From a virus, in IMG/VR virus record IMGVR_UViG_3300010354_000196, positions 1 through 41,282 of that record: DNA of 41,282 bases. One strand, 5' to 3'. The position numbers and the translations under genes were made by a program. The notes beneath the pieces are model-generated. The model saw only the letters and a list, made by a program, of their open reading frames with translations, did no database searches and was not told the origin of the DNA. This document shows positions 1,824 through 40,967 of this stretch, in pieces; the stretch's first letter is position 1, and every line of letters begins with the position of its first letter.

Positions 1824-1833
1824 CTAGGTTTCC
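1824..1833 (-). promoter_or_regulatory. Motif A copy (GGAAACCTAG)
   Basis: Read on the minus strand this is GGAAACCTAG. It holds the TAG stop of the gene at 1824-2573 and lies 23 nt before the GTG at 1800. It is a GGAAACC variant of the recurring motif. Confidence 0.5.
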
Positions 1834-2573
1834 AGCGTGATGCTCAGCTCATCCACCACGCCACTGACCGCGCTGATCTCCAACCACACAAAGGCATCCG
1901 CCGGAATCGGCATCTGGGCCAGCGCCACGCTGGTGCCCGTGGTGGTGCTGGTGACGGTGGTGCTGACCGTGGCGGCCGTGCCGCTGGCCGTGCGGTCTGC
2001 GGCGTGTTTGATGACAAAGGTGACGCTGGGGCTGCTGGCACCCTGCAACACCGCCAGCACCGCCGTCAGCGTCACGTCCGTATCGGCACGGAACAGCGTG
2101 AAGTCGTCGCCCGCAACCGGCGCCGTGATGCTGATGCTCTTGGGCAGTTCCAGGTTGGCCAGACCCGTTGGCGGCGTGTAGTTGAGAATCCCTGCCTCGC
2201 TCGGGATCCTCAGCTGCATCTGGTTCTTCGGCCCCACCCGCTCGGGCACGTTGATCCGGGTGACCGTAGATCCTGAGAACGAGTAGAGCAGTATGCCGGC
2301 CACCGTGTTCAGGTTGGCATCCCCTTCCCAGTCGGTCAGGTACACCGTCCATTCCCGTGTTGCCCCCTGCCCCTGGTACTGCAGAACCGGCGTTAGGTCC
2401 GGCTCAACCAAGATGACGCACTCGAGCCCGCTCACCCGCGTACCCGGTGCCAGGCCTTCCCCTGCAGAGCGCACGGCAATGGATGGCGTGGTGACCCCGT
2501 TAGCCAGCGTGTAGAGCCCCAGGAACGGGCTCAGCACCGTTGCCAGCTGGCCTCTGAGGGTGAGCACGTCCAT
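1824..2573 (-). CDS. Tail protein with beta-rich C-terminal part (249 aa)
   Basis: Residues 1-130 (MDVLTLRGQLATVLSP onward, with LECVILVEPDLTPVLQ and REWTVYLTDWEGDANL) form a compact alpha/beta domain resembling small tail-completion or minor tail proteins. Residues 130-249 are Thr/Ser/Ala-rich beta strands typical of an exposed appendage. The ATG lies 4 nt after the stop of the chaperone frame. The last residues ET plus stop are encoded inside a motif A copy. Tail terminator is one possibility for the N-terminal domain, but I cannot confirm it. Confidence 0.65.
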   Translation of the reverse strand: MDVLTLRGQLATVLSPFLGLYTLANGVTTPSIAVRSAGEGLAPGTRVSGLECVILVEPDLTPVLQYQGQGATREWTVYLTDWEGDANLNTVAGILLYSFSGSTVTRINVPERVGPKNQMQLRIPSEAGILNYTPPTGLANLELPKSISITAPVAGDDFTLFRADTDVTLTAVLAVLQGASSPSVTFVIKHAADRTASGTAATVSTTVTSTTTGTSVALAQMPIPADAFVWLEISAVSGVVDELSITLET

Positions 2574-2577
2574 GCTT

Positions 2578-3234
2578 TCAGGTTGCCATCAAAAGCAGGT
2601 CGCCCTCTAGCCATGCTGCCGCGTAACGGTTGGGCACCGTGAGGTCGTAGTGCAGCAATGGCCGGTCCATGTCCCGAACCCTGACTGGCCCATGTAGCGG
2701 CTTGGCCACGCACACCAGCCCACCGCGCACGTTCCGGCCCTCCAGCTTGGGTGCCAGCACCCACACCACGCCATCGTCTGACCGCAGGCACCGCAGGCCA
2801 GGGGGTGCCACGTCAGGATTGGAAGCCTTCAGGATCTCAGGCCAAGCTGCCAGCAGGATCGGGGGTGCTTGCCCCTCCCGCTGCAGGCTCAGCGCCACTG
2901 CCGCCACCTGGGGCGATAGGCCCTCACTGCTGCTGGCCTTCTGCTCACGCTGGAACAGGGCCACGTCTGCCGGCATGAACGGCTCTTTGCGCTTTTTCTC
3001 GTCCCTGTTCAGGTTCAGGGTCGTGGAATGCAGGTAGGCAATTGGCAGCTCTGCCAGCGCCGCCGCGTCCATCCGCATTCGCTGCAGATGGTTCCATGCC
3101 CTGATGACCACGGCCCGCCGTTCATCCCCAAAGGTGGCCCGGTGGAACTGGCCAGGGAACGCGGCGATCAGGCTCCAGAAGATCTCTTCCCAGTCCCACG
3201 TTTCGGGCTGCCACCGCCCGCTGGCGGCTTTCCC
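2578..3234 (-). CDS. Tail assembly chaperone, T-like part reached by -1 frameshift
   Basis: This frame is open from the slippery site at 3234 to the TGA at 2578 and has no good start near its beginning; the first possible start is a GTG at 3111. It continues from the upstream gene in the -1 frame and encodes WDWEEIFWSLIAAFPGQF then NRDEKKRKEPFMPADVALF. Ribosomes slipping at GGGAAAG would make a fusion of about 391 residues. In lambda and many siphoviruses a G/GT pair made this way coats the tape measure protein during tail assembly. The equivalence rests on the frame structure and the identical heptamer, not on residue matches. Confidence 0.7.
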   Translation of the reverse strand, partial: GKAASGRWQPETWDWEEIFWSLIAAFPGQFHRATFGDERRAVVIRAWNHLQRMRMDAAALAELPIAYLHSTTLNLNRDEKKRKEPFMPADVALFQREQKASSSEGLSPQVAAVALSLQREGQAPPILLAAWPEILKASNPDVAPPGLRCLRSDDGVVWVLAPKLEGRNVRGGLVCVAKPLHGPVRVRDMDRPLLHYDLTVPNRYAAAWLEGDLLLMAT

Positions 3235-3752
3235 AGCTCTTCCTCACTCCTGGGCTTGCTGGGCAGGTCTTCCGTGACCGTTTCATCCTCGGCCAGCCGG
3301 TACAGCTCATCGAAGAGCCGGCGATGAAGGCCCTGGGTGTCCGCCATGGTCCATTCGGGCATCCCAAGCCGGTGGCGAATCAGGGCGGTCACGGTGGCCT
3401 GCCTTGTGCGCTCCCCTGCGCTGCGCAGCACTTGGCCCATCTCTTCCATCCGCGCCGCGTGGCGCAGCTTCATGGTCAAGGCTTCGGGTTCCAACTCGCG
3501 GCCGGCCACTGCCGCTTCCACCAGCTCAAAGGCCTCCACTAGCGTCACCCCCTCGGCTTTGGCAATCGCATCAGCGATCTGCGCAGCTTTGACAAAGGTG
3601 CTCTGATCGCCTGAGAGCAGATCCTGAATCGTGGCACTCTCTGCCACCGTCAGACCGCCCAGAACAGGCACCTCCAGCGTGCCACTGGCCTCATTGCCAA
3701 CCACGCGCTTGGATGCCTTTGCCGGGGCTTGCAGGAACGGTAGAGCGGTCAT
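3168..3752 (-). CDS. Tail assembly chaperone, G-like protein (194 aa)
   Basis: Starts at ATG 3752 (MTALPFLQAPAKASKRV). It is mostly helical and acidic to neutral (AAQIADAIAKAEGVTL, HAARMEEMGQVLRSAG), ending in a Pro/Gly/Lys tail that looks like readthrough past the useful domain. Near the end, codons CTG GGA AAG present the lambda slippery heptamer GGGAAAG, and the -1 frame continues for about 215 codons. The start overlaps the stop of the 42-residue gene upstream as ATGA. The gene sits after the tail tip and lectin genes, whereas G/GT genes normally lie between tail tube and tape measure. Confidence 0.7.
   Translation of the reverse strand: MTALPFLQAPAKASKRVVGNEASGTLEVPVLGGLTVAESATIQDLLSGDQSTFVKAAQIADAIAKAEGVTLVEAFELVEAAVAGRELEPEALTMKLRHAARMEEMGQVLRSAGERTRQATVTALIRHRLGMPEWTMADTQGLHRRLFDELYRLAEDETVTEDLPSKPRSEEELGKPPAGGGSPKRGTGKRSSGA
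3228..3234 (-). other. Programmed -1 ribosomal frameshift site GGGAAAG
   Basis: The minus strand reads CTG GGA AAG in the 0 frame, so both tRNAs can re-pair on GGG AAA in the -1 frame. This is the heptamer lambda uses to make gpGT. The two reading frames overlap for 67 nt (3168-3234), and GC-rich sequence downstream could stall the ribosome. Confidence 0.7.
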
Positions 3753-3877
3753 GAGGATGCCTTGGTGATGGTGCGTGCGAGCTGTTCACGCTTGAGGCGT
3801 GACTGCCGGTTGAGTTGTGCGATGGCCTGCAGCCTGGCAAGCAGCTGCTGGGGCATCTGTGACTGCGGTGCGTTCAT
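3749..3877 (-). CDS. Small helical protein (42 aa)
   Basis: Frame MNAPQSQMPQQLLARL to TITKASS. It is basic and Gln/Arg/Leu-rich with the look of a single amphipathic helix. ATGA overlaps join it to genes on both sides (stop 3749 with start 3752; start 3877 with stop 3874), which is strong evidence that it is translated. Function unknown. It could be a partner of the tail chaperone. Confidence 0.55.
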   Translation of the reverse strand: MNAPQSQMPQQLLARLQAIAQLNRQSRLKREQLARTITKASS

Positions 3878-5031
3878 GCTAGAGACGTGATGGAAGTGGG
3901 CGGCGTGTAGGTGTTGCCGGTGTAAAGCGCGCGGGGGGTGAAACGAAAGCCGTGGGCCTTTGATGGCTGGCTAATTGTTGGCGCACTTCCCGTGTCGTCA
4001 AACGCAAAACCAATGTCTGCGTAGACTCCTAACAGTCTCGCGGCCGGGTTGGGACTACTAGGCGTGTCCCATGCTGGCAGCAGTTCGGCGCTTACCTCTG
4101 GACTGTATGCCACCCGCTGCCCGTTGTAGTAGCGCGAAACGTTGCGAGTCGTCGGGCTTGATCCTGGCTGCTGAACAACTGCAACGTGATGCCAAACTGC
4201 TGGATCCGCAACGGACGCGATAACGTCTGCCGTCACTCCGGGAATCTCGATGTTTGTAGCGCTGTAAGACGCTGCCCCGTAGTCAATGTTCAGAACGCGA
4301 TAAGGCGTGTAAGTCGTTTCGTCTACTTGATCCCAAAGATGGCCAATCGACAATCCAACGACGCCGGGGATTGCCACCTGGATTGAGCTTTGAAAATACG
4401 GGGACCCTGCAATGGCAGGCATCAATCGCAGCAACGCCTCAAACGTCAACGATCGAGACAGGGGCTCCTTGCCCGTGCCGCCAGTTGCCTGCAGTGCGTA
4501 GGAGCATGTGCGATCCCCGTCCGCAAACACTGGCGCCGTGGCCATGTATGCGGCGCCGCGCCCAGCAGGTCCCCCTGATGCGTCGAACTGAAACAGGAAC
4601 GGTTCAGCGTTAGAAAACGCAAACGGCGGCAATCCGCGCACCTTGGCCCTGAACTCCGCGTCAGACGGGACCAGCAGCCACGATTTGCCGCCCCGAGGCG
4701 TCGCCGCCACCTTGGGCCCCGTGTAGTACTCCGGCACGCCAGACCGCAGCGTCCCTGCCCGCAGCTGGGCATCCAGATCAGCCAATGGGCTTGCGCTGGC
4801 AGCCTGACTGGCCCTGTTTCGGCCGTTTGCACTGGGGCCACCAAGCCCACCAGACCCGCCACCGCTGCCCGCAGCGCCATCCACACCGCGTTCAATCGCC
4901 CCCTGGATCTTGGCCTTATCCCGCTCCCCTTGCTCACGCTCCAACCGCTTCTCGCGGTTCACCGCTGCCAAGGCACTCACCCGCTGTGAAAGCAGGGCCT
5001 GAGCAACGTCAACGCTGATGCGAGTGCCCAT
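3874..5031 (-). CDS. Tail protein with LamG/ConA-like lectin fold (385 aa)
   Basis: The N-terminus is helical and charged (NREKRLEREQGERDKAKI), followed by a Gly/Ser linker near residues 50-80 and a large beta-rich region. Around residues 285-315 the pattern WHHVAVVQQ...YYNGQRV matches the laminin-G / concanavalin A-like lectin signature (W-H-H-V-A-V, then Y-x-G-Q-x-V). Such domains in tail proteins bind surface glycans. A receptor-binding role is inferred. The start couples to the 5031-5483 gene as TGATG, and the stop overlaps the next start as ATGA. Confidence 0.7.
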   Translation of the reverse strand: MGTRISVDVAQALLSQRVSALAAVNREKRLEREQGERDKAKIQGAIERGVDGAAGSGGGSGGLGGPSANGRNRASQAASASPLADLDAQLRAGTLRSGVPEYYTGPKVAATPRGGKSWLLVPSDAEFRAKVRGLPPFAFSNAEPFLFQFDASGGPAGRGAAYMATAPVFADGDRTCSYALQATGGTGKEPLSRSLTFEALLRLMPAIAGSPYFQSSIQVAIPGVVGLSIGHLWDQVDETTYTPYRVLNIDYGAASYSATNIEIPGVTADVIASVADPAVWHHVAVVQQPGSSPTTRNVSRYYNGQRVAYSPEVSAELLPAWDTPSSPNPAARLLGVYADIGFAFDDTGSAPTISQPSKAHGFRFTPRALYTGNTYTPPTSITSLA

Positions 5032-5483
5032 CAGCTAGCCGCAAACAGCTGGATTCGGTAGGTCACGGGCACATCAGGCGCCAGCGTGACGGCCGGCGAC
5101 TCGACAAGTAGCGAATGCACCCGCGTCTCCTCTGTCCATCCCCCGCTGCCGTTGTCAGTCCCGAGCACGACGTAGATCCGGTCGTAGGTGATGCTGCCAC
5201 CACTGGGGGTGAACACCGCATAGATGTAGGTGTTGGCCCCACTGGTGCCGCCCATCTCGTAGCGGGAGTCCGTGGCATCAAAAGCGCCGGCCTCCACCAC
5301 GTCGGTGAAGTCCACATAGCCACTGCCCGACACCTTGACGGAATCCCAGTCGGTGACGGTGCTTTCTGCCGTGAAGCCGGTGGATCCCACGTTGGCCAGG
5401 CTGACGCGGACGCGCTTGCCCTCGTAGCAAAGGCCTGCCACACGGGCTAGCTCATGGGTGCTCAGGGTTGCGGTGAGGGCCAC
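5031..5483 (-). CDS. Beta-rich minor tail protein (150 aa)
   Basis: Starts at GTG 5483 (MALTATLSTHELARVAGL) and is mostly beta strand with Gly/Ser loops. The segment YIYAVFTPSGGSITYDRIYV suggests a phage-tail beta-sandwich. A motif A copy ends 17 nt upstream of the GTG. Its position between the tail tip protein and the lectin-like protein suggests a distal tail component. I recognise no specific family. Confidence 0.65.
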   Translation of the reverse strand: MALTATLSTHELARVAGLCYEGKRVRVSLANVGSTGFTAESTVTDWDSVKVSGSGYVDFTDVVEAGAFDATDSRYEMGGTSGANTYIYAVFTPSGGSITYDRIYVVLGTDNGSGGWTEETRVHSLLVESPAVTLAPDVPVTYRIQLFAAS

Positions 5484-5500
5484 GGTCTACAGCGTATGAG

Positions 5501-5510
5501 CTAGGTTGCC
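5501..5510 (-). promoter_or_regulatory. Motif A copy (GGCAACCTAG)
   Basis: GGCAACCTAG on the minus strand immediately follows the TAG stop of 5511-8603 and lies 17 nt before the GTG at 5483. Here the motif is entirely non-coding, so its conservation cannot be explained by protein sequence. Confidence 0.6.
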
Positions 5511-8500
5511 CTAAGCCTTGATCAGTGCCGCATCGTTGCCGGTGACATCGACTGCGCCAACTTCGGCGGCGATCAGGGAGTCTTTCTTCAGGGTGGCATC
5601 CAGCCCCTCGACAAAAAAGTCTCCGGTCGTCACCATTGATGCCGAGATCCCAACCACAACGCCTATCGCCACCTCGCGTTCCAGCGGCACCACGGCATAG
5701 CCAATCCGCTTCACCCGCAGTCCGACCCTCACCCCGCGCTCCACGGTTACCGTCTGCGCCGTCGGCGGAATGATGAAGTCCGGGGCCAGCGTTTCCGGGT
5801 ACTCCACCACATCCAGGCTAGGAATGCTCTCCAGCGCATCACCAGGCGCTGCAGGGTCAAAGTTCGGCGGCACCGGAATGCTGCTCCAGGGCACTGCCCC
5901 AGGTGTCGTCGTGCTGCTAGGCACCGCAGGCAGACTCGTCACGGTGGAAGGCACCGGGAAATAGGCCGGGCCCGCACCGCCAATGCCGCCCACCAGCAGC
6001 GCGTCAATGTTGGCCACCACGCCATTGCTGTCAAAAGCCACCGTGATCCCATTGGTCCGATACGCCCCCACCACTCCAGCCAGATCGAGGTAGATCGGCT
6101 CCAGCGGATACCGGGGCACCGACCACGGCACGACTTGAAGGCTCATGCCGTAGCGGTTCCCGTAAGCAATCGTGCGTTGTGCCCGCGCGTAGCGCAGAGC
6201 CAAGGCATTGGCGTTCTGCTGCTGGTACTCAGCCCACTGCTCCTGATACCCATTTTCCCGGTCCCACGTCTTTGGGATCGCAGGGCTCAGCGGCAGCCGC
6301 AGATCGGGCGGGCCAGGGTTGCCCCCAGTCTGCCGACCTGGCGGCGGATCGCCCCCAGTGTCTCCGCTGTCCGCCCCATCAGGCTCTCTAGGCTTTGACG
6401 AATCAGCCGGCGCGGCAGGCCGCAATCCAAAGTTTGGATCGTACCGGGTGTTACTGCTTTGCCCTGCAAATACCAATGACGTGGCATCTGCCAGCCACTG
6501 GGATGAGCCCACGGCTTCTGCCTGTGCGTTTAGACGCTGTTGTCCTTCCGGTGTTTTGTAGGCTGCTGCATAGCGTGTTGTGACCGTGCGCGTGATCCCC
6601 CTTGAGCGATCCCTGTAATACTCGGTCCGCACTCGTTCCCCGACATAGGCCGGATAGGTCAGAGGAGGCAACATTCCATCCGGCCAGCTTAAAGCGCCAA
6701 TCGCAATCTCCCCAGGCTCATAGGTGGTAACCGTTTCGGATACAGGTTCCTCGTCAACCTCCCCGATAAGCCCAAGGTTTCTGGCATCACCAAGGGTGAG
6801 GCGTGGGTTCTGCTGTGTATCAGGATCATTGACGGTGCCGGTCGCAATTTCCCAATAAGTACCAGTGAAGCGATACGCGCATTTCCCGTAACGATGAACA
6901 GACCCAGCAGCAGCGCCACTTGGAAATGACAAATCAGCCGGACAGTCTCCATTGATAACGCAGGCGCCCCACCCGATGCCATCCTCTGTCGGGCTGTTCG
7001 GATCTTTACCTTCGATTGGCTTGTACTGCGTCAGCGTTACAGTCGTCACCGGCACTGAACCGCTAATGTCTGGGTTGCTGCCAGCCTCTAGATGACGCTG
7101 CACCGCGTTGCCAAGAGATGCGGCACGGCCGATTTGTTGGCGTTCCTCCTTATAGCTGATGTTTCCGTTGGCATTTGCCTGCTCTCTAGTAGAAGACGAC
7201 GGATAGTGTGTATAGGAAGCGGTGGCAGCCTCACCGCTTAGGGTCTGGTAAGAGACCGTGGTTGTTTCTCTGCTGCCGCTGGTAAAAGTCCAAAAGGTAC
7301 TCCCTCCCTCTGGGCCATCCGGCGGGGGCGGATCTGTTGCCGGCTGTTCCTCTAGGTCCCTTGCCAGATCCTCAGGCGTTGGGCTGGAATCCTTGACCCG
7401 GATATAGACGGTTGCGCTGTTCGATAGCTGGTATCCGTCCGTGACCTGATACGAGAAGGTCGCGGTGCCGTTGAAGCCCTGCTCAGGCGTGAACACCACG
7501 CCTTGCTGTGTCTGTGTGACGCTGCCGCCATTGCCTCCGCTGACGCTGAATAGTGCCAGCGAGGCGCCAGGGCGCTGGAGCGCCAACGTAGCAGGGTCTT
7601 GCCATGTACGGCCCGTAAATAGGCCGTTGATAAGCGTCACAGGGTCGCCTAAGTACGACGCGCCTCCAACGAAGTCGTAGGCGACTGGTGCGACAGGCTC
7701 AGGCTCGGGCGCCTTCGGGGGCTCGCGTGGCGTGTCCCGAAACTCGATAACCGGATCATCCATCGGCAGTTCACCCGAGCCAATGGGAGCAATATCAATG
7801 ATGTCAACTTCGCGGATTACAGGACCGGAGGAAGGTTCCTGCAGCGACATAGCTTGTATGACCAGCCGCTCTTGCTCGTCAAGATAGCCGACGTAGCTTT
7901 CGGCACTCAGCAGCTGCTCCATCGCAGCAACGTAGCCGTTGCTCAGATCAACTTGGTTTTCCTCGTAATCGCTGCTAAGCGGAATGCCGGTGCTGGTCAG
8001 GGCCAGGGCTGCCAGGCACTTGATGAAGATGGTCCGCGCCGCGATTGTGACCGGGGCCTTGAACTCCTCATCTGCCGGGCGGTCTGGGTTCTGTTCAAAC
8101 GGTGAGGTAGTTGGGTTGGTCCAGTCAAAGGCGAACTCATCTTCTGGGTTGATGATCTCCGTTTTCCAGCAGATGCCGTTAAAGACCCGTCGCTGAATCT
8201 GCGGGCTGTTGCCAAACTCAGGAGGCGGATACGGCAGTGGTGTGTCGAGCTGGTCGCCGGGCTGCGGATCGGGCGGGTAGGCGGTGGTGCCGAGGGTGGG
8301 GCCCTGCTTTTTCTGCTCCAGCCATACGAGCTTGTCGCCCAGTTGCACCGTGGTGGTCTGGCGCAGGGGGTCAGCGAAGCTGCTCAGCACCCGCAACACC
8401 CTGGGCACCAGTGCTAGCTGGCCGTCACGCACGTAGGCGAGCTTGACGATGGTGCCGGCCTCGGGCACCACAATGCCCCGCAGGATGAGTTGGCCACGGC

Positions 8501-8603
8501 AGCGGATCAAGCCCTGGCCTACTGCGAGGGCCTCGTCGCTCCAGTTGCCGCTGATGACCTCACCGAGGCTGCAGCTGATCTTGGCGCGGATGTCGGCAAC
8601 CAT
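5511..8603 (-). CDS. Large tail tip / central tail protein (1030 aa)
   Basis: The N-terminal 150 residues (MVADIRAKISCSLGEV, then RGIVVPEAGTIVKLAYV) resemble tail hub or baseplate domains that follow the tape measure gene. Residues about 370-400 (FTPEQGFNGTATFSYQVTDG) match the cadherin-like/VCBS beta-sandwich repeat found in bacterial and phage adhesins. Pro-rich linkers follow, then a second mixed domain and a Thr/Val-rich C-terminus. Size and place (tape measure, small tail protein, this gene) fit the tail-tip protein that contacts the host. Its ATG overlaps the preceding stop. No enzymatic motif is visible. Confidence 0.75.
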   Translation of the reverse strand: MVADIRAKISCSLGEVISGNWSDEALAVGQGLIRCRGQLILRGIVVPEAGTIVKLAYVRDGQLALVPRVLRVLSSFADPLRQTTTVQLGDKLVWLEQKKQGPTLGTTAYPPDPQPGDQLDTPLPYPPPEFGNSPQIQRRVFNGICWKTEIINPEDEFAFDWTNPTTSPFEQNPDRPADEEFKAPVTIAARTIFIKCLAALALTSTGIPLSSDYEENQVDLSNGYVAAMEQLLSAESYVGYLDEQERLVIQAMSLQEPSSGPVIREVDIIDIAPIGSGELPMDDPVIEFRDTPREPPKAPEPEPVAPVAYDFVGGASYLGDPVTLINGLFTGRTWQDPATLALQRPGASLALFSVSGGNGGSVTQTQQGVVFTPEQGFNGTATFSYQVTDGYQLSNSATVYIRVKDSSPTPEDLARDLEEQPATDPPPPDGPEGGSTFWTFTSGSRETTTVSYQTLSGEAATASYTHYPSSSTREQANANGNISYKEERQQIGRAASLGNAVQRHLEAGSNPDISGSVPVTTVTLTQYKPIEGKDPNSPTEDGIGWGACVINGDCPADLSFPSGAAAGSVHRYGKCAYRFTGTYWEIATGTVNDPDTQQNPRLTLGDARNLGLIGEVDEEPVSETVTTYEPGEIAIGALSWPDGMLPPLTYPAYVGERVRTEYYRDRSRGITRTVTTRYAAAYKTPEGQQRLNAQAEAVGSSQWLADATSLVFAGQSSNTRYDPNFGLRPAAPADSSKPREPDGADSGDTGGDPPPGRQTGGNPGPPDLRLPLSPAIPKTWDRENGYQEQWAEYQQQNANALALRYARAQRTIAYGNRYGMSLQVVPWSVPRYPLEPIYLDLAGVVGAYRTNGITVAFDSNGVVANIDALLVGGIGGAGPAYFPVPSTVTSLPAVPSSTTTPGAVPWSSIPVPPNFDPAAPGDALESIPSLDVVEYPETLAPDFIIPPTAQTVTVERGVRVGLRVKRIGYAVVPLEREVAIGVVVGISASMVTTGDFFVEGLDATLKKDSLIAAEVGAVDVTGNDAALIKA

Positions 8604-9613
8604 CAGCGGGATTCAGCGACGGAAACAGACACCGTGTATTCGATGACCTTGAGGCCGCCTTCGATGCGGTTGGCAGCGGATGCTGAGGGTGCCGAGATGG
8701 GGAACAGATCGCCGGTGCTGGGGCGGGCCTGCACGGCAGCCTCAAACCACGTCTGGATGCCTGCCCAGCCGGGGGCGTTGGTGGTGCCTTCCACCTGGTA
8801 GACCTTGGTCGCAGCCAACGGGCCAGAGATGTAGCTGCGGCCTGTCGTGGTCAAGGCCAGCTGCGGAACGTCTTGGTAGGTTTCCGGCGGTTTGAGCAGC
8901 GTCAACACAACACCGCCAAGGGTGAAGGTGCCAAGGGCCGGGCGGTCATCGTTGCCAATCTCCTGCGACCGCAGGGCCACGGCAAGCGCCTGATTGGCGT
9001 CCACCAGTTCGCAGGAGGCCTGCAGGTAGATGCCGACCTGCTCCGCGCTGGGGGCGGTGGAGAACCAGCAGGGAACGCTGATCCAGCTCTGGCCATTGGT
9101 GCTGGCCGTGAGATTGATGGTGGTGCCTACGTCCTGGGCGACGACCGAGTCCGGGTCATCAATGCGGGCATCCCGCCAGGCCTCGTAGACGGACACCAGC
9201 GCTTGCCACTGCGTCTTGGTCAGCAGCCCCGAGACTTGCCACTTCCGCGCGGTGAGGCCCTGGCGCGTGTTGGTTTCGTCGTAGCCGAAGGGCTGCGCGG
9301 CGAGGTTGCGATCAATGCTCAGGGTGCCGATGGTGACGCGACCCACGGCACTGGGGCCGATGGATGCGGCGATGCCGGTGAGGGCAAGGCTGCCAGGGGA
9401 TGCGGTGAGGCGCCTTGTGGCCCTGAGCCCTGCGGCGATGCCTGTGAGGGCATAGGTGCCTGCGGCGGCGGCAATGAAACGCCCTAGGCGGGCAGCGTTG
9501 CCTGTGACCGTGAAGGTGCCCTTGGCGGCGGTCAGCTGGCGATTACGGGGGAAGGTTGCAGCCTGCCCTGTGACCGTGAAGGTGCCCTTACCGCCGGAGA
9601 TGTAGTGGTTCAT
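8603..9613 (-). CDS. Minor tail protein with N-terminal VTG repeats (336 aa)
   Basis: Residues 1-90 contain four copies of a repeat built on G-T-F-x-V-T-G-x-A-A (GTFTVTGQAATF, GTFTVTGNAARL, GTYALTGIAAGL, GSLALTGIAASI), the same repeat as in the truncated gene at the left edge. Residues 100-336 form a distinct domain (TARKWQVSGLLTKTQWQ, YLQASCELVDANQAL) resembling distal-tail proteins. ATGA overlap with the tape measure stop places it as the first gene after tape measure, where distal tail proteins normally lie. The repeat fusion is the odd element. Confidence 0.7.
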   Translation of the reverse strand: MNHYISGGKGTFTVTGQAATFPRNRQLTAAKGTFTVTGNAARLGRFIAAAAGTYALTGIAAGLRATRRLTASPGSLALTGIAASIGPSAVGRVTIGTLSIDRNLAAQPFGYDETNTRQGLTARKWQVSGLLTKTQWQALVSVYEAWRDARIDDPDSVVAQDVGTTINLTASTNGQSWISVPCWFSTAPSAEQVGIYLQASCELVDANQALAVALRSQEIGNDDRPALGTFTLGGVVLTLLKPPETYQDVPQLALTTTGRSYISGPLAATKVYQVEGTTNAPGWAGIQTWFEAAVQARPSTGDLFPISAPSASAANRIEGGLKVIEYTVSVSVAESR

Positions 9614-11364
9614 GCGACACCCCCGAGCACGTCACCAGAGACCGCAGCAAGGCCGTCTGAGGCGACGTTGACGACTACCTGCCAGTCCTTTTCAGCCAGG
9701 CTGATCAGCGGCGACTGGACGGCATTGAGGGCGCCAACCAGATCTTTGCCTGCTGCGTCGAAAGTCTTGGTTGCAGCCAGCACGCCACGGGCTGAGCCCC
9801 CGATGCTCAGCAGTTCCTCCGGCGTGGTGTTGAACCCAACCACGTCCCCCCGGAAGATGCCGGCCTTCTGCGCGGCCTGGATGTCCTTCCGCGCATTGTC
9901 GGTTAGCTGCCGCTGAATCTGCGGGGTGAGGAACTTGAAAGCGCCCTCAAGAGAACCACGGAGGGCCTCGCCGGCGCCTTTGAAGCGCTCGGCCGCGCTG
10001 ATCAAGCTGTCAGCGGCGATCCTGCCGCCTTCCCCAAGCGCGGACTTGATCTGCTCGGCGTCCTTCTTGGCAATGTCGCCAAGCCTTTGCTTAAGACCGG
10101 CAATCTCTATCCCGGCGTCAGCATACGCAGGGCTATTAACATCAAGGTTGCTTTGCTTGCCTTGCAACTCCTTGATCTTGTCGTTGATCTTGGTTGCAGT
10201 GTTAAGGCGCTGTTTGTCGGTTTCCAGCAACGCTCGCGCGGCTGCGGCCTCCGCCTCCGTTTGAGCGGTGCGGTCTGGATAGCGGGCCCGCCAGATCTTG
10301 GCCAGCTCCCGGAAACGCTCAAGCACGCTGCCGACCTGCTCTGGCTTTGCTAGTCCGATGTTGTTGATGCCCTCTAGCTTTTGAGCATCAAAGAACAGGG
10401 CGTTAGCCTGCTTGTCGGTGAGATTCAGCTGCTGCTGCGTTTGCTTGAGCACGGCGACGGCATCTAGCGCCTCTTGCTTGAAAATGCCAAAGCTGCCGAG
10501 TGCACCGGTGCCGAACCCAAGACGGTCGGCGCTCATCTTGCTTCCCTGCACCTCCAGAATCTGACTGAGCACCTTGACCCCCTCAATCACCTGGGGCAGG
10601 AGGTTTTGCCCAAACGACGTTTGGAGATCTTTCCAAGCGTTGCCGAGCTTCTGGAAGTTTTGGGCCGCTGTCGGCGCACCCCCTGCAGCCGCTGTTAGCT
10701 CGTTAAGCCCCTTGGTCAAGGCCGGGAAGAATTGATCAGAGGTGAGGCGGCCAGTCTCTACCAGCTTAATCAGCTCCTGCTGTGTCAACCCCAATCCCTT
10801 TGCAGCAGCACCGAAGGCGATTGGCAGTCGCTCCCCAAGCTGGCCGCGCAGTTCTTCCATCTGCACGGTGCCCTTAGAGGCGATCTGCTGCAGGGCCAGC
10901 AGGCTGCCGCTCAACTCGTCATTACTCAGACCAAGCGCTTGAGCGGACTTTGCGACAGCAGCGAACAGATCCTCCTGCACTTTCAGCGGCGTTCCTGCGG
11001 CGGTTGCCGCTGCCGTGAAGCTGCCAAAGGTGCCGGCCAAGGTCGTGAAGCTGAGTCCAAGCTGATCCGCGAGGCCACGTGTCACACCGAGGGCACGCGC
11101 TGCACCCTGTTCACCAAGGGTGTTGGACAGCTTACGGGTGATCGTTTCCAGCTCAACAGCGGAATCAATCGAGCCCTTGAGGAAATTGACGGCAGTGACG
11201 CCAAGGCCAAAGGTGGCAATGGCACTGGAGACAGAACGGGCAAAGCTATTGCCGACTTGGACTCCTTCAGTTGCGGCAACCCGCTTAGCCTGATCAAGCC
11301 CAGCACGAAACGGCCCCTCGTCAATGCCAAGGACTAGGACGGCATTGCCAAGCGTTTCCGCCAC
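9610..11364 (-). CDS. Tape measure protein (584 aa)
   Basis: Starts at GTG 11364 (MAETLGNAVLVLGIDEG). Residues about 70-230 match the tape measure N-terminal domain (ETITRKLSNTLGEQG, MEELRGQLGERLPIAFGAAA, TSDQFFPALTKGL). The middle is helical and coiled-coil (KQRLNTATKINDKIKELQG). The protein sets tail length during siphovirus tail assembly; at about 1.5 Å per residue it would give a tail near 90 nm, which is short. The GTG lies 18 nt after the minus-strand half of the palindrome at 11381-11403. Immediately upstream is an inverted two-gene module. Confidence 0.88.
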   Translation of the reverse strand: MAETLGNAVLVLGIDEGPFRAGLDQAKRVAATEGVQVGNSFARSVSSAIATFGLGVTAVNFLKGSIDSAVELETITRKLSNTLGEQGAARALGVTRGLADQLGLSFTTLAGTFGSFTAAATAAGTPLKVQEDLFAAVAKSAQALGLSNDELSGSLLALQQIASKGTVQMEELRGQLGERLPIAFGAAAKGLGLTQQELIKLVETGRLTSDQFFPALTKGLNELTAAAGGAPTAAQNFQKLGNAWKDLQTSFGQNLLPQVIEGVKVLSQILEVQGSKMSADRLGFGTGALGSFGIFKQEALDAVAVLKQTQQQLNLTDKQANALFFDAQKLEGINNIGLAKPEQVGSVLERFRELAKIWRARYPDRTAQTEAEAAAARALLETDKQRLNTATKINDKIKELQGKQSNLDVNSPAYADAGIEIAGLKQRLGDIAKKDAEQIKSALGEGGRIAADSLISAAERFKGAGEALRGSLEGAFKFLTPQIQRQLTDNARKDIQAAQKAGIFRGDVVGFNTTPEELLSIGGSARGVLAATKTFDAAGKDLVGALNAVQSPLISLAEKDWQVVVNVASDGLAAVSGDVLGGVA

Positions 11365-11380
11365 ACCACCACAGCTGTTC

Positions 11381-11403
11381 CCTTAGCTTGCCGGAAACCT
11401 AGG
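11381..11403. promoter_or_regulatory. Palindromic double motif A between divergent genes
   Basis: The sequence reads CCTTAGCTTGCC followed directly by GGAAACCTAGG, so two motif A half-sites point outward from a TGCCGG centre. The minus half ends 18 nt before the tape measure GTG (11364). The plus half runs to within 3 nt of the ATG at 11406. This is one of two places where the motif forms a full dyad; the other is 40948-40967. Confidence 0.6.
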
Positions 11404-11405
11404 CC

Positions 11406-11810
11406 ATGACTAGCGCCATCGCCTTTCTGGCCAATGCCTCGGCAGTCTTTGACGTGCCCACGGCAGGGACACTGACCGACCCGACGACAGGCAACGTGGT
11501 GCCCAATACGACGACGGTGACGGTGAGCCTGTACCTGCGCGGGCAGGGTGGCAGTGCCCCATCCCTCAGCGAGTTCCCCGGTGTGGGCGTTGAAGACGAC
11601 GTGCTGGAGGGCTATGCCGTGAGCCCCCAGACCCTCGATAGCCGCATCGTGCCCGGTGTGCGTGGGACGCTGACCTTCGGCGCCGATGACCCGGTGCCCT
11701 GTGAAGTGGCCGCTGCGCGGTATCCGTTCGGCAGTACCGGGTTTCTGGGGGAGACGCTGCAGGGGATCCTCGGGGACAAGATCAGGCTCTCCCGCTACAG
11801 CCAGCGATGA
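11406..11810 (+). CDS. Phage head-tail neck/connector region protein (134 aa), inverted
   Basis: Starts MTSAIAFLANASAVFDV; beta-rich, with SLYLRGQGGSAPSLSEFPG and a C-terminus LGDKIRLSRYSQR. It couples to the next gene through an ATGA overlap. Position between tail tube and tape measure, and pairing with a gp10-like protein, suggest a neck or stopper role. That is inference; I do not recognise the family. The gene runs opposite to all surrounding structural genes, with motif A almost touching its start codon. Confidence 0.6.
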   Translation: MTSAIAFLANASAVFDVPTAGTLTDPTTGNVVPNTTTVTVSLYLRGQGGSAPSLSEFPGVGVEDDVLEGYAVSPQTLDSRIVPGVRGTLTFGADDPVPCEVAAARYPFGSTGFLGETLQGILGDKIRLSRYSQR

Positions 11811-12232
11811 CCACAGTCCGCACCAGCTACCGGCTCCAGGGGTGGAACGCGACACAGCTCAAGCTGCGCATCCCGGCCATCCTCACGGCCTACGGCAAAG
11901 CAGTCGGGGACGAGTTTCAGGAGCAAATCAAGCTAGTCCAGTACCCCTGGCCACGGCGCACCTACCGGAAGAACGGCACCATCGAAGAAAGCCCGCGCGA
12001 CATCGTGGACCTTGGCGGCTTCCTGCGGTCCCAGCGCCGCGAGCGCGTCAACGCCACCACCCTGCGCTTCAGCTGGAACACCCCCTACGCCTCGCTGATC
12101 TTCAGCGGGTACACCACCAACCGTGGCAACGTCTGCCCGCCCCGCAACTGGATCAAACCGGCCCTAGACGCGCAGCCGCTGGATCGGTTCTTCGCTGACC
12201 AGTGGAAAGCCCTGGCACGCCGGTCGCTGTGA
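11807..12232 (+). CDS. HK97 gp10-like tail completion/connector protein (141 aa), inverted
   Basis: The segment PRDIVDLGGFLRSQRRERV then LRFSWNTPYASLIFSGYTT is the hallmark of the HK97 gp10 / neck protein family (P-R-x-I-V-D-x-G-x-L-R-x-S-Q followed by W-x-x-Y-A-x-x-x-x-x-G). These proteins join heads to tails. It is transcribed opposite to the adjacent capsid and tail genes and converges on the tail tube gene, with a terminator hairpin 8 nt past its stop. Confidence 0.75.
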   Translation: MTTVRTSYRLQGWNATQLKLRIPAILTAYGKAVGDEFQEQIKLVQYPWPRRTYRKNGTIEESPRDIVDLGGFLRSQRRERVNATTLRFSWNTPYASLIFSGYTTNRGNVCPPRNWIKPALDAQPLDRFFADQWKALARRSL

Positions 12233-12236
12233 CATG

Positions 12237-12262
12237 AAAAGCCCCCGGCGTGAACCGGGGGC
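12237..12262 (-). terminator. Rho-independent terminator for the leftward head/tail-tube transcript
   Basis: On the minus strand an 8-bp perfect GCCCCCGG/CCGGGGGC stem with a 6-nt loop is followed by TTTT. It sits between the convergent tail tube gene and the gp10-like gene. On the plus strand the stem lacks a T-run, so it should stop mainly leftward transcription. This separates the head operon from the tape measure operon. Confidence 0.75.
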
Positions 12263-12285
12263 GTGCGTCCTACTCCCTAGCTTGC

Positions 12286-13044
12286 TCAGCTCACCGTGGC
12301 CACCGTGAACTGAGGCAGCACGTCAGACCCTGCATCGCCCACAGTGCCTGCGGCCACGGTCAGGATGTCGCCAACCTTGTAGTTGGTGCCGCCAGCCACG
12401 ATAGTCGGCGCTGCACTCACGGTGCCGCCGCCTGCCACCACAATGTCTGCCGTGGCGCTGCGGCCACTGCCCACACCTTGGCCAGGGGTCACGCCAATGA
12501 GCGACACGCCGCTGTAAGTGGCGGGGGTCAGGCCGCTGCCGTTGGTGGTGACGGTCAGGGTGGCGATGGGGTTGCCCTGCGGATACCAGATCAGACTTCC
12601 ATACCCGCGGAAAGTGAAGCTGACAGTCGCTACATCGCCAGCCTGCACACTCTCTTGGAATCCCTCAACAAAGGCAATGCCGCTGTGGATCTCAGCGTTG
12701 TCACCGCTGCCATCCTTCACCGGAGACACGCGATAGACCCGCAGCGCAGTCCCGGCAGCGCCACCCAGCCATGCCGACTTGAGCAGCTTGTAGCCGGCAT
12801 CCCCGAGGGCCAGGTTCATTGAGGCGGGGACACTCCACCCAATGTTGGTCATCAGGGGGTTTTTCCACCCGTACTCTGATGCGTAGTCCAGAGGCGCATC
12901 GGTAGAGTCGGTGCTGCCGTCAATGCTGGCGTTGGTGAGGGAAAGAACCTGCGTCAGGCCCGAGCTGGAAGTGGGGGCACTAGAGGCGGTGGTGCCAAGC
13001 CCTACATAAAGCTCGTAATCAAGGGCTGTGAAATACCCGGACAT
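12286..13044 (-). CDS. Major tail tube protein with C-terminal Ig-like/fibre domain (252 aa)
   Basis: Residues 1-165 (YFTALDYELYVGLGTT, LTNASIDGSTDSTDAPLDY, HSGIAFVEGFQESVQAGD) follow the pattern of siphovirus tail tube proteins. Residues 165-252 form a separate Gly/Val-rich domain (GQGVGSGRSATADIVVAGG, GGTNYKVGDILTVAAG) typical of exposed tail-surface domains, comparable to the C-terminal Ig domain of lambda gpV. The ATG lies 18 nt after a motif A copy. A motif-A-like GAGCAAGCTAG follows its stop, just ahead of the terminator. Confidence 0.75.
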   Translation of the reverse strand: MSGYFTALDYELYVGLGTTASSAPTSSSGLTQVLSLTNASIDGSTDSTDAPLDYASEYGWKNPLMTNIGWSVPASMNLALGDAGYKLLKSAWLGGAAGTALRVYRVSPVKDGSGDNAEIHSGIAFVEGFQESVQAGDVATVSFTFRGYGSLIWYPQGNPIATLTVTTNGSGLTPATYSGVSLIGVTPGQGVGSGRSATADIVVAGGGTVSAAPTIVAGGTNYKVGDILTVAAGTVGDAGSDVLPQFTVATVS

Positions 13045-13062
13045 GATTGGCAGTCGTTTGGC

Positions 13063-13072
13063 TTAGCTTGCC
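13063..13072 (-). promoter_or_regulatory. Motif A copy (GGCAAGCTAA)
   Basis: The minus strand reads GGCAAGCTAAGCCAAA. It covers the last codons and TAA stop of the sigma-like gene and lies 18 nt before the tail tube ATG. Its downstream flank (GCCAAA) matches the copy before the portal gene. Confidence 0.6.
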
Positions 13073-13674
13073 GCCGCCAGTTCCCGCTCCTCCTCAGCCT
13101 CCAGCCATTCCATGGGCGACGGCCGCTGATCGCAGTGCAGTTCCCAGTCTTGAACGTCGTGCCCGATGCCTGAGGTGGCCAGCAGGCTCTCCTGTAGCTC
13201 CTGCAGGCTGCAGCCGAGGGCCTCGGTGACCTGCTGCGGTGTCATGCCAGAGGCTGCCAGCTTGCGTGCCTTGCTGCCCCGCTCGCGCACGACGGGGGGC
13301 GCTGCGATCTGGAAGCCGTGGTCCCGGAGGTAGTGCATGATCTCGCCCTCCACAAAGCGGCCTAGGAGAGTGCTGAGCTTGTAGGGCTCACCGTTGGCAG
13401 GGTTCAGCTTGGTGGGGTCGTAGCTGCGGAAGGTGCGCAGGAAGGCCACGTCCACCAGGGACGAGATCACGTCCCTCTCCAGGACTGGAAACTTCCTGCT
13501 CATCTTGGCGGTGAACTTCCAAGCCAGCCCGATGTTGGCGGCGTAGAGCTTCCCAAAGGCCCGCCGTTCCTCCCTTGTGAAGGGCCGCTCTAGGTGGTCG
13601 CGTTCTCGCCACCGATCCTCCTCAAAGCCAAGGCCCGTCAGGAGTGTGAGCTGGTTGCGGTCTTTGCGGGCCAT
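13063..13674 (-). CDS. Phage-encoded sigma-70-like RNA polymerase sigma factor (203 aa)
   Basis: Residues about 35-120 have the sigma region 2 pattern: LYAANIGLAWKFTAKMSRKF (2.1), ERDVISSLVDVAFLRTFRSYDPTK (2.2), then LSTLLGRFVEGEIMHYLRDHG (2.3-2.4, compare FstyA...irgEI.hylRd). Residues about 125-170 (VVRERGSKARKLAASGMTPQQVTEALG) look like a region 3/4 helix-turn-helix. Length fits a small group 3/4 alternative sigma. It would redirect host RNA polymerase to phage promoters. It lies inside the head-gene operon, 6 nt after the connector gene, which suits late timing. A host-like group 3 sigma acquired by the phage is my reading. Confidence 0.8.
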   Translation of the reverse strand: MARKDRNQLTLLTGLGFEEDRWRERDHLERPFTREERRAFGKLYAANIGLAWKFTAKMSRKFPVLERDVISSLVDVAFLRTFRSYDPTKLNPANGEPYKLSTLLGRFVEGEIMHYLRDHGFQIAAPPVVRERGSKARKLAASGMTPQQVTEALGCSLQELQESLLATSGIGHDVQDWELHCDQRPSPMEWLEAEEERELAAAS

Positions 13675-13680
13675 GGCCCA

Positions 13681-14238: not shown

Positions 14239-14363
14239 GGCTTCTGGATGCGCTTCACGGTGCCATTAGGGCGGACCTTGAGCAGCTCGTGTCGATGGGG
14301 TTCGCCGGCCTTGGGCTGCAGGAGCTTGCCTACGGCCACGATGCTGTCCTGATAGGTGGCCAT
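14235..14363 (-). CDS. Small conserved-looking head-region protein (42 aa)
   Basis: Frame MATYQDSIVAVGKLLQP to TVKRIQKP. The start overlaps the upstream stop as TGATG and the stop overlaps the adaptor ATG as ATGA. This tight coupling on both sides supports translation. It is basic at its C-terminus. No known domain. Confidence 0.55.
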   Translation of the reverse strand: MATYQDSIVAVGKLLQPKAGEPHRHELLKVRPNGTVKRIQKP

Positions 14364-15016: not shown

Positions 15017-15034
15017 TGGTCCAGCTCGATTGCC

Positions 15035-15044
15035 TTAGGTTGCC
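15035..15044 (-). promoter_or_regulatory. Motif A copy (GGCAACCTAA)
   Basis: GGCAACCTAA encodes the last residues (Ala-Thr) and TAA stop of the gp7-like gene and lies 18 nt before the ATG of GRF(A/S)S copy 1. It is preceded by GGCGCC, so GGCGCCGGCAACC is partly dyad. Confidence 0.6.
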
Positions 15045-16356: not shown

Positions 16357-16504
16357 TGATGGGCCTCCTTACACGGCGTCGTTTCGTAGGTTGCCGATCA
16401 TGTGTCGGCTCGGGTTGCGGCTCAACAGAAGAAGAGGCCGCAGCCTCTGCCTGAGCAGAGAGTGCAGCCTCGATCTTGTGCCGCCGGAAAGCGGTCAGAC
16501 CCAT
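16343..16504 (-). CDS. Small basic protein overlapping the next gene (53 aa)
   Basis: The frame from ATG 16504 reads MGLTAFRRHKIEAALSAQAE, then a Ser/Pro spacer and a basic tail PTKRRRVRRPINERE. It starts 1 nt after the decoration gene's stop and overlaps the 16356 start by 14 nt. Short 'LTxFRRRxxxEA' proteins between capsid and connector genes occur in many siphoviruses. A motif A copy (GGCAACCTA) is encoded in frame within it at 16387-16395. Confidence 0.5.
   Translation of the reverse strand: MGLTAFRRHKIEAALSAQAEAAASSSVEPQPEPTHDRQPTKRRRVRRPINERE
16387..16395 (-). promoter_or_regulatory. Motif A copy (GGCAACCTA)
   Basis: This copy lies inside the short basic ORF, 30 nt before the ATG at 16356. 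It is the most distant example from its presumed target gene. Confidence 0.45.
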
Positions 16505-18773: not shown

Positions 18774-18782
18774 TAGGTTGCC
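18774..18782 (-). promoter_or_regulatory. Motif A copy (GGCAACCTA)
   Basis: AGGCAACCTACG begins at the stop codon of the 75-residue gene and ends 23 nt before ATG 18750 (17 nt before the alternative GTG 18756). Confidence 0.55.
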
Positions 18783-20627: not shown

Positions 20628-20637
20628 TTAGGTTGCC
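20628..20637 (-). promoter_or_regulatory. Motif A copy (GGCAACCTAA)
   Basis: Non-coding copy 16 nt before the portal ATG and just past the TGA of GRF(A/S)S copy 2. The extended form GGCAACCTAAGCCAAAG matches the plus-strand copy at 33864 at all but one base. Confidence 0.65.
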
Positions 20638-21321: not shown

Positions 21322-21330
21322 TAGGTTGCC
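21322..21330 (-). promoter_or_regulatory. Motif A copy (GGCAACCTA)
   Basis: GGGGCAACCTATGCC, non-coding, just after the TerL stop and 19 nt before the ATG of GRF(A/S)S copy 2. Confidence 0.6.
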
Positions 21331-26236: not shown

Positions 26237-26462
26237 GGGCTAGCTTGCTTTCGGTAGCTCAGCACCCAGCCCGGCAGGTAGAAGCGCCGGGCTTTTTTCT
26301 TGGGTGCCGTGGGCACCTTGGCACAGGACGGGGCCGTCTGCTGTGCATTTGGGAACCGAAGGGGCTAAGATCCTTTTAGCGGATCAAGGAGGGCAGCCAC
26401 CCTCCCCGCCCTGGCCTTGACCAGCCCCCTTCAGTGCCGGCCTCAGTTGCCGGTATTCTCTC
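26237..26462. promoter_or_regulatory. Divergent control region between the initiator and the ParB-like gene
   Basis: This 226-bp gap holds, left to right, motif A (GCAAGCTAG on the minus strand, 26241-26249), a plus-strand terminator hairpin (26269-26299), motif B (26348-26362), an inverted repeat CTAAGATCC/TTTTAG near 26366-26380, and a GGAGGG-CAGCCA-CCCTCC hairpin near 26387-26404. The region must contain promoters for both arms. I cannot assign -35/-10 boxes with confidence. Confidence 0.55.
26269..26299 (+). terminator. Rho-independent terminator facing right, upstream of the initiator gene
   Basis: AGCCCGGC, a 10-nt loop and GCCGGGCT form a perfect 8-bp stem followed by TTTTT. No plus-strand gene lies upstream, so it can only end a transcript running antisense to the 5' part of the initiator gene or starting locally. 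Confidence 0.7.
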
Positions 26463-33863: not shown

Positions 33864-33872
33864 GGCAACCTA
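33864..33872 (+). promoter_or_regulatory. Motif A copy (GGCAACCTA), plus strand
   Basis: GGCAACCTAACCCAAAG followed by CCTTAGACCC and ATG 33891. The copy is non-coding and lies 18 nt before the start. It nearly duplicates the portal leader although it is on the opposite strand, 13 kb away. Confidence 0.65.
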
Positions 33873-33890: not shown

Positions 33891-34343
33891 ATGGCCCGCG
33901 CTTCTGGCAGGAGATACAGCAGAGATGCCCGTGGGCGGTTCTCTAGCTCCGGCGCCACGGCACGCGGCGGCAGGCTCGGCAAGCAATCAGGGCGCCGTGG
34001 GTCCGTCAAGGCCAAGCTGCCCGCATCGCGCCCCGGCGGCACCGTGACCAAGGGGAAAACCAACAAGCCGGCAACCCCTCCGAAGCCGGCAGCACGCAAA
34101 CAGCGCGGCATTGAATCGCGCCTTGAGCGGTCGTCAACGTTGATGCTGGACTACCGCAGAAGTCAGAATCGCGTCCCTTGGCAACATGGCGTTAAGCCGA
34201 TGACGCCCGCAAGGGCGCAGCACATGGAGCGCCGTGTGCAGCAGCAGAAACAGGCGATTGCCAACCTGTACGGCAAGCTCTCACCTTCCAATCAGAAAAG
34301 GGCTTCTACCAAGCTGCGCCGGTCGAGGTTGATGAGTGGCTGA
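33891..34343 (+). CDS. Basic GRF(A/S)S-family phage protein, copy 3 (150 aa)
   Basis: MARASGRRYSRDARGRFSSS then GATARGGRLGKQSGRR, followed by Lys/Pro-rich sequence (GKTNKPATPPKPAARKQRG) and a helical C-terminus (AQHMERRVQQQKQAIANLYG). It shares the N-terminal block with copies 1, 2 and 4 but not the tail. It is separated from the head genes, between a methyltransferase and RusA, and carries its own motif A. That makes it look like an inserted cassette. Confidence 0.7.
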   Translation: MARASGRRYSRDARGRFSSSGATARGGRLGKQSGRRGSVKAKLPASRPGGTVTKGKTNKPATPPKPAARKQRGIESRLERSSTLMLDYRRSQNRVPWQHGVKPMTPARAQHMERRVQQQKQAIANLYGKLSPSNQKRASTKLRRSRLMSG

Positions 34344-35548: not shown

Positions 35549-36157
35549 TCAGGCTGCCACCCACTCCCACCGCCGCCCCAGCGACCGCCGGCCCGTCCGC
35601 GCTGACCACTGAATCGTGGACACGTCACAGTGCAGCGCCTCCGCAGCCTCCCTCGCACCCCCGTACACCTCCCCGGTATCCACGCACCGCACCCGCCGCC
35701 GCACGTTCGGACGGAACGGGTATTCAGCCGCGATCCGGTCCGCCAGCTCACGGTTTTCCAGCACCTCAAACAGTGCATCCGCGCTGCAGCCCCCAAACCG
35801 CCAGGGCTGTTCCTTGGCCAGCCTCACAAGGTGCCGCCGCTTGATGAACCGCTTCCCGTAAGGGTGCGTCTGACGCGACTGCAGCAGCCCGCTCTGACAC
35901 CACTGGTTGATGGCTGACTGCGTGATCCCCAGCGACTTCAGGCCGCTGAGCATGATCCACGACCCCACTGGCACCACGCTGTAGCCGTGATGGTTCAGGA
36001 ACTCCTTGATGGCCAGCCGGGTCCGCTGCGGCCACCCACGCCTGGCGGCCTCCCCTTTCCAAAAGCTCACGATCATGCCTAGGGGCAGATCCCCGGCAAG
36101 CTCCTGCAGCAGCTCAGTCTCTGCCTGCGTCCAGTGCTTGGCGCCTTTGCGTCCCAT
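35549..36157 (-). CDS. Multi-domain DNA-binding regulator (202 aa)
   Basis: Start ATG 36157 (MGRKGAKHWTQAETELLQEL), chosen for the leader C copy before it. Residues 8-60 resemble a Myb/SANT-like domain (HWTQAETELLQELAG ... GWPQRTRLAIKEFLNHHG). Residues 65-115 look like a MerR-type wing (MLSGLKSLGITQSAINQWCQ, KRFIKRRHLVRLAKE). Residues 155-202 match a NUMOD1-type motif (VRCVDTGEVYGGAREAAEAL). No nuclease motif is visible. Divergent from the rightward small-gene operon, it is a candidate repressor of that operon. Confidence 0.6.
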   Translation of the reverse strand: MGRKGAKHWTQAETELLQELAGDLPLGMIVSFWKGEAARRGWPQRTRLAIKEFLNHHGYSVVPVGSWIMLSGLKSLGITQSAINQWCQSGLLQSRQTHPYGKRFIKRRHLVRLAKEQPWRFGGCSADALFEVLENRELADRIAAEYPFRPNVRRRVRCVDTGEVYGGAREAAEALHCDVSTIQWSARTGRRSLGRRWEWVAA

Positions 36158-36321
36158 TGGTCGGTGGTGGTTGCGGGCCGCCCCACGGCGGCAGTTCCCG
36201 GAGCCTACCCCTTCGCTTCCCAAGGCCGTATGACGAGATGCAACAATCCGCCTCCCAAAGCCGAGGGACAGGGGTTACAGTTCCAACAGGCGGACCTCCC
36301 GCCCCGCACCCACCACCACCC
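36158..36321. promoter_or_regulatory. Divergent control region with two motif B copies
   Basis: On the plus strand motif B occurs at 36211-36223 (TTCGCTTCCCAAG) and 36248-36260 (CCGCCTCCCAAAG). After them come GGGGTTACAGTT (possible -10) and a leader C copy CGCACCCACCACCACCC ending at ATG 36322. On the minus strand CGCAACCACCACCGACC precedes ATG 36157. Both genes thus start with the same type of leader. Confidence 0.55.
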
Positions 36322-40656: not shown

Positions 40657-40759
40657 GAGCCCACCGCACCGCGAACGGGGCAGCGTACTTTGCGCAACCT
40701 CTCAACTGAGAAGTTCCCTTAACAACGCAGGCAGATCCCCTGCGCCGCAGGCAGTCTGC
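40657..40759. promoter_or_regulatory. Recombinase upstream region with candidate attP palindrome
   Basis: At 40696-40715 AACCTCTCAACTGAGAAGTT forms an imperfect dyad (8 of 10 pairs match). Serine integrases usually recombine at a short dyad site next to their gene, so this could be attP. It could equally be an operator or part of the recombinase promoter. A second short GC inverted repeat (CTGCGCCGCAG) lies at 40739-40749. Confidence 0.4.
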
Positions 40760-40927
40760 CTAGCAGCCGGTCAAGATCAGCCCCGTCACCCACGTATCCG
40801 CACCCTCGGCCCGCAGCGCCTGCCGCACCTCCTCCACGTCATCGCGGTGGATCTTGCGGCAACTTGCCCCGGCCCGTGTCCACCACCAGACCGTGACCAG
40901 CTGCTCACGCGCCTCTGCCACGTCCAT
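40760..40927 (-). CDS. Small hypothetical protein (55 aa)
   Basis: Start ATG 40927 (MDVAEAREQLVTVWWWTRAG), then KIHRDDVEEVRQALRAEGAD and WVTGLILTGC. Compact alpha/beta composition with a Trp triplet. It lies 103 bp upstream of the recombinase in the same direction, so it may be its partner (excisionase or directionality factor). No sequence proof. Confidence 0.5.
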   Translation of the reverse strand: MDVAEAREQLVTVWWWTRAGASCRKIHRDDVEEVRQALRAEGADTWVTGLILTGC

Positions 40928-40947
40928 GCGACCGCTGCTGTTGCCAC

Positions 40948-40967
40948 AGGTTGCCGGAAACCTAAGG
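40948..40967 (+). promoter_or_regulatory. Palindromic motif A before GRF(A/S)S copy 4
   Basis: AGGTTGCCGGAAACCTAAGG joins two motif A half-sites in dyad. The plus half (GGAAACCTA, ending 40964) lies 19 nt before ATG 40984. The minus half points toward the 55-residue gene (start 40927). Confidence 0.6.

Follow-up and report, generated by a model that had tools for sequence, protein, structure and literature searches.

GGMAASCTA, a nine-nucleotide box that recurs at gene junctions of a virus contig of 41,282 bases (the window, analysed at its full length and on both strands), quite probably marks phage late promoters that are read by host RNA polymerase together with a phage sigma factor encoded at 13063-13674. 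We infer each part of this reading, namely the promoter nature of the box, the sigma factor as its reader, the late timing of expression and the host supply of the core enzyme. Beyond the window, we lean towards a broader pattern in which a (mostly) freshwater-type clade of cyanosiphoviruses combines GC-rich, -35-less promoters of structural genes with a SigF/SigB-like sigma factor lacking region 4, with start sites so precisely set that mRNAs are exactly leaderless or have leaders of at least 7 nt, and with back-to-back boxes that form compact bidirectional promoters. The open-licence literature that we searched contained neither GGMAASCTA together with cyanophages nor a case of cyanosiphoviruses in which a region-4-less SigF/SigB-like sigma factor goes with a GC-rich box and with a class of leaderless mRNAs.

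A repeated box at the gene junctions of a cyanosiphovirus

The window carries siphovirus head and tail genes on its minus strand (terminase, portal, head morphogenesis, scaffold, major head, major tail and tape measure) and genes for a Sak-like annealing protein, a helicase and DNA methyltransferases on its plus strand. Its closest cultured phages are the Synechococcus and Prochlorococcus siphoviruses KBS-S-2A, S-H1, MED4-184 and MED4-117 (44-53% identity in the portal, 36-40% in the major head protein), and it is therefore a cyanosiphovirus. A serine recombinase is also encoded, given which the phage may be temperate. A genome scan with the capsid protein gave no match and portal alignment led to one cyanobacterial contig. 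CAIJRN010000045.1, a 44 kb contig binned with an uncultured cyanobacterium, carries the portal, sigma factor and boxes of this phage group; it is a phage or prophage and points to the host.

The initial annotation, made from the letters alone, had described at least 13 copies of GG(C/A)AA(C/G)CTA in gaps or gene junctions, always pointing towards the next gene, and had named similar copy numbers in shuffled sequence as a result that would speak against the motif. We recovered 13 exact matches against 0.64 expected, at coordinates agreeing with that annotation within 1 nt, and the looser pattern GGVAAVYTA returned the identical 13 sites; at least 13 copies were reached in none of 100 dinucleotide-preserving shuffles. 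Location and orientation held for 12 of the 13 copies, which lie at gene junctions and share the orientation of the downstream gene (Table 1). They did not hold for the copy at 8877..8885(-), which we rejected as a site and judged to be coding sequence because it falls within gene 8603-9613(-), in the codons GAA ACC TAC CAA GAC, and because identical words recur in relatives. Another over-represented word of the window, CACGCTGGA, lies away from gene junctions and was set aside, as was GATGTCACG, over-represented in KBS-S-2A and likewise away from junctions.

Table 1. Boxes, one-mismatch candidates and the sigma factor gene in the window
Feature	Position	Strand	Context
Box GGAAACCTA	1825..1833	-	24 nt before GTG 1800 of gene 1363-1800
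Weak one-mismatch candidate GGCAACCTG	2579..2587	-	5 nt before ATG of 1824-2573
Box GGCAACCTA	5502..5510	-	18 nt before GTG 5483 of gene 5031-5483
Box GGCAAGCTA	11384..11392	-	19 nt before GTG 11364, tape measure gene 9610-11364
Box GGAAACCTA	11393..11401	+	4 nt before ATG of 11406-11810; predicted leaderless
Sigma factor gene, 203 aa	13063..13674	-	PHROG sigma families, Pfam, profile, fold
Box GGCAAGCTA	13064..13072	-	19 nt before ATG 13044, major tail gene 12286-13044
Box GGCAACCTA	15036..15044	-	19 nt before ATG 15016 of gene 14363-15016
Box GGCAACCTA	16387..16395	-	30 nt before ATG 16356 of gene 16108-16356
Box GGCAACCTA	18774..18782	-	Scaffold gene 18061-18756; 17 nt to GTG, 23 nt to ATG
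Box GGCAACCTA	20629..20637	-	17 nt before ATG 20611, portal gene 19145-20611
Box GGCAACCTA	21322..21330	-	19 nt before ATG 21302 of gene 20640-21302
One-mismatch candidate AGCAAGCTA	26241..26249	-	4 nt before ATG, replication-initiation gene 25241-26236
Box GGCAACCTA	33864..33872	+	18 nt before ATG 33891 of gene 33891-34343
Box GGAAACCTA	40956..40964	+	19 nt before ATG 40984

When sites in this phage group were located by gene position, a set that admits up to two mismatches, the consensus was GGMAASYTA with G1, A3, A4, T7 and A8 (columns counted from 0) nearly invariant, and the conserved unit extended beyond 9 nt to roughly GGMAASYTA-N-G-S-C-A-A. The major tail box overlaps the stop codon of the sigma gene, and the predicted leader behind the box at 16387..16395 contains a Shine-Dalgarno-like AAGGAGG. 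Two of the boxes, 11384(-) and 11393(+), abut head to head with zero spacing, the 40956(+) box abuts a near-match GGCAACCTG at 40947-40955(-) in the same manner, and such head-to-head pairs recur in relatives. Zero-spaced, back-to-back boxes leave no room for private -35 elements and fit compact divergent promoters.

Some of the genes behind boxes are observations in their own right. Four that stand directly behind one, 14363-15016(-), 20640-21302(-), 33891-34343(+) and 40984-41280(+), have a common basic N-terminus (MARGG-R-Y-RD-RGRFSS-GATARGGR) and differing C-termini; these paralogs are dispersed over the genome with a box ahead of every copy, and those tested matched neither Pfam nor PHROG families. 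At 11406-12232(+), flanked by the tape measure and major tail genes, lie two genes that run opposite to the late module and are conserved in the box-bearing clade, the first being predicted as leaderless from its divergent box.

A phage sigma factor and the distribution of the box

The 13063-13674 protein combines sigma region 2 with a C-terminal, region-3-like helix-turn-helix (HTH) and matches PHROG sigma families. Twelve homologs have the same region-2 core and HTH, two homologs score above the Pfam Sigma70_r2 cut-off, and the family profile matches solved SigF (1l0o, Bacillus-type) as well as other sigma factors. Its predicted structure is of moderate confidence (pLDDT 74); the fold search returned sigma factors through much of its list at modest overall scores, and the model aligned to the SigE region-2 domain 8b3z with a TM score of 0.83, normalised to that domain. 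Region 4 was not detected by Pfam in the six family members scanned, and a like scan of the KBS-S-2A sigma factor saw regions 1.2 to 4. The protein is thus a SigF/SigB-like sigma factor of the sigma-70 family without detectable region 4.

Evaluating the box across relatives, we found that loci fetched by portal similarity split cleanly into one high-GC group with several boxes each and others with close to zero, and that the pattern read backwards, as a control, was almost absent. Because the box-bearing group among these loci was partly chosen for the box, loci selected by the sigma protein are the cleaner test, and across their 824 kb we counted 238 boxes, compared with 15 for the reversed control, with at least one box in 73 of 79 loci. 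The box-bearing relatives are high-GC uncultured phages, and the genes preceded by the box are the same in them as in the window (portal, scaffold, major tail, tape measure, connector). An exact box preceded the portal in 60 of 74 cases, the scaffold in 44 of 78 and the tape measure in 22 of 31; it preceded the major tail gene in 55 of 92 and the homologs of gene 11406 in 35 of 72, rising to 90 of 92 and 69 of 72 when one mismatch was allowed. No box stood before the sigma gene (0/92), head morphogenesis (0/75) or terminase (0/50) in these relatives, nor before the portal in motif-free relatives (0/57). As the sigma gene is never preceded by a box, it is presumably reached by read-through.

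The initial annotation had also held that absence of the motif from equivalent gaps in related phages would count against it, and here the outcome divides, with the box present in the uncultured relatives and missing from the more distant marine ones. The cultured marine relatives KBS-S-2A, S-H1, MED4-184 and MED4-117 hold 1-3 copies, which is chance level, S-CBS1, S-CBS3 and S-LBS1 hold zero, and no GGMAASCTA array was found in the examined parts of S-CBS2 and PSS2. These last two carry repeats of other kinds. In S-CBS2 (36877-72332), we counted about 8 occurrences of AGGAATTCAA and words overlapping it, for an expectation of 0.04, and these are a different repeated, near-palindromic element of that phage; in PSS2 (1-20000), a palindrome, GCACTAGTGC, was present 6 times over both strands, for an expectation of 0.02.

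The sigma gene was present in all 83 loci that span its position, 78 of which contain an exact box, the five others all being partial contigs, and we did not detect it in relatives that lack the box, six complete or near-complete genomes among them. With the exception of a distant S-CBS2 homolog, the sigma-bearing members form one portal lineage, so that the co-occurrence of sigma factor and box amounts to a single clade-level event with no independent replicates, and it is supporting, not decisive; the two together were sought outside the portal clade and not found.

This common descent confounds the co-occurrence and leaves room for a promoter that is read by something else, be it a host sigma factor, another phage factor or a phage polymerase, and further proteins without assigned function are indeed confined to the same clade. 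We nevertheless consider another reader unlikely. A host-type signal was rejected, and a host regulon is improbable, since a cyanobacterial metagenome-assembled genome (MAG) of 3.4 Mb contained the box 20 times and the reversed pattern 97 times, with 4 of the 20 boxes located on the contig that bears the phage, and since none of 41 genomes from the same cyanobacterial genus had more than one match to the 15-nt form of the box; the box is a phage-specific feature. The missing -35 element described below also fits a sigma factor without region 4. A search for a single-subunit (T7-type) polymerase gave no PF00940 match in the window, and none in the control genomes either. Two further proteins that the initial annotation had put forward as possible binders were dropped as readers because their distribution does not follow the box: the 35549-36157 protein (gene 35549-36223(-)) has homologs in motif-free relatives, and the 27675-28427 protein (gene 27627-28427(+)) has homologs in four loci only.

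Spacing between box and start codon

Spacing was evaluated for 115 non-redundant sites out of 326 distinct ones, taking the first ATG that opens at least 50 codons, which revealed a bimodal distribution. The distance from box to ATG is exactly 4 nt at 8 of the 115 sites (33 of the 326), it is 0-3 or 5-10 nt at none of the 115, and at all others it is 11-53 nt with a peak at 19; among random positions, 0.35% have an ATG at 4 nt and 4.2% at 0-10 nt. The distance of 16-19 nt that had been reported for eight copies was remeasured as 17-19 nt and survives as one mode of this distribution, not as a fixed spacing. The 4-nt class is not confined to one gene (it includes portal, 11406-type, tape measure and other genes) and is kept at sites located by gene position whose boxes are imperfect, and for the portal the spacing is 4 nt or 17 nt depending on the phage. 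Outside the 4-nt class, an A occupies offset 4 or 5 in 90 of 107 sites. The base at the presumed start is A in about 60% of sites, not all. Upstream of the 115 sites, no column from -70 to -3 rose above 0.06 bit, and with zero conserved columns and weak 5-mers a -35 or other upstream element was rejected.

The 4-nt class, the empty range at 5-10 nt, the start-site A and the lack of upstream conservation together give the signature of a -10-only promoter, and, judged from the sequences, the simplest account of the spacing would be that transcription starts at the conserved A. In the mechanism that we propose, host RNA polymerase core with the 13063-13674 sigma factor would bind GGMAASYTA as the -10 element of late promoters, at about -13 to -5, which is the register of the T4 late box, and RNA synthesis would begin at the conserved A, four (or five) nt beyond the box. 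An ATG exactly at this A would produce a leaderless mRNA, whereas for an ATG farther away the leader would measure about 7-26 nt, with 15 as its commonest length, and leaders of 1-6 nt would be avoided. A -35 element would not be needed because the sigma factor lacks region 4; promoters without a -35 element are what such a sigma factor leads one to expect, and the sites have this form.

Of the three suggestions in the initial annotation, it is the promoter box for the phage sigma factor that the evidence supports, and the exact 4-nt class, the empty range and the A at +4/+5 were predicted by neither of the other two. One of these would have the boxes serve as stoperators or operators, asymmetric sites in gaps, oriented with transcription, at which a phage repressor silences the prophage as in mycobacteriophage L5. 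Gap location, orientation and asymmetry do fit the description of stoperators (PMC9283540) at 12 of the 13 sites, back-to-back pairs exist, and the serine recombinase suggests a phage that may be temperate; with the start-codon geometry against it, with the regulators proposed as binders not following the box and with no obvious repressor co-distributing, we regard such a role as quite unlikely. That the box is instead a start-associated translation signal, aiding ribosomes at weak starts at the RNA level as in Cluster K mycobacteriophages, is highly improbable, for while the sites precede start codons and a Shine-Dalgarno-like word accompanies only 13 of 61 leadered sites, the distance is not fixed and has a forbidden range (4 nt or 11-53 nt), it changes between phages for the portal, and divergent boxes abut with zero spacing.

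Comparison with known systems

Among mycobacteriophage elements, the start-associated sequences of Cluster K, GGGATAGGAGCCC, are asymmetric repeats located immediately upstream of many starts, mostly in one orientation (PMC3203893). Our box is likewise an asymmetric repeat before many genes and mostly in one orientation, and it differs in sequence and in having a bimodal spacing with an empty range. The stoperators of Cluster A (PMC9283540) share with our box its asymmetry, its location in gene gaps and an orientation that follows transcription; the start-codon geometry and start-site A seen here are not expected of repressor sites.

Further likenesses lie with sigma-dependent promoters. The Bacillales SigB consensus is GTTTAA-N15-GGGTAT (PMC9847131), and the SigB/SigF promoters resemble the present sites in a -10 element beginning with GG, and the family profile of the sigma factor matches a Bacillus-type SigF; the differences are that the cyanophage system has no -35 element and no region 4 and that the rest of its -10 element departs from theirs. 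The small sigma factors of S-CBS2, S-CRES1-3 and PSS2 are of similar size and have 25-31% identity to the 13063-13674 protein over part of its length.

T4 is already known to combine a phage sigma factor with late promoters of the -10-only kind, which consist of a short 8-bp TATA box without conserved -35 and are served by the small, diverged sigma factor gp55 (PMC2988020). Our sites agree with these in a short, -10-only box placed roughly one helical turn ahead of the presumed start, in the lack of a conserved -35, in serving both transcript polarities and in the reader proposed here, a small phage sigma factor with region 2. They differ in that GGMAASYTA is GC-rich and not of the TATA type, so that the cyanophage box is not a member of the T4 type and is similar only in its working; in a sigma factor closer to SigF/SigB, with an HTH after region 2; and in the leaderless class. 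If our reading is true, start sites could be predicted to the base for many uncultured cyanophage genes, and the box would be a sequence tag by which phages of this group, and their late genes, can be recognised in metagenomic data and in genomes of cyanobacteria. Genes that occur in both a leaderless and a short-leader form would offer a natural comparison of the two. The system would also represent a second, sequence-unrelated version of the role of T4 gp55, with -10-only late genes served by a region-4-less phage sigma factor.
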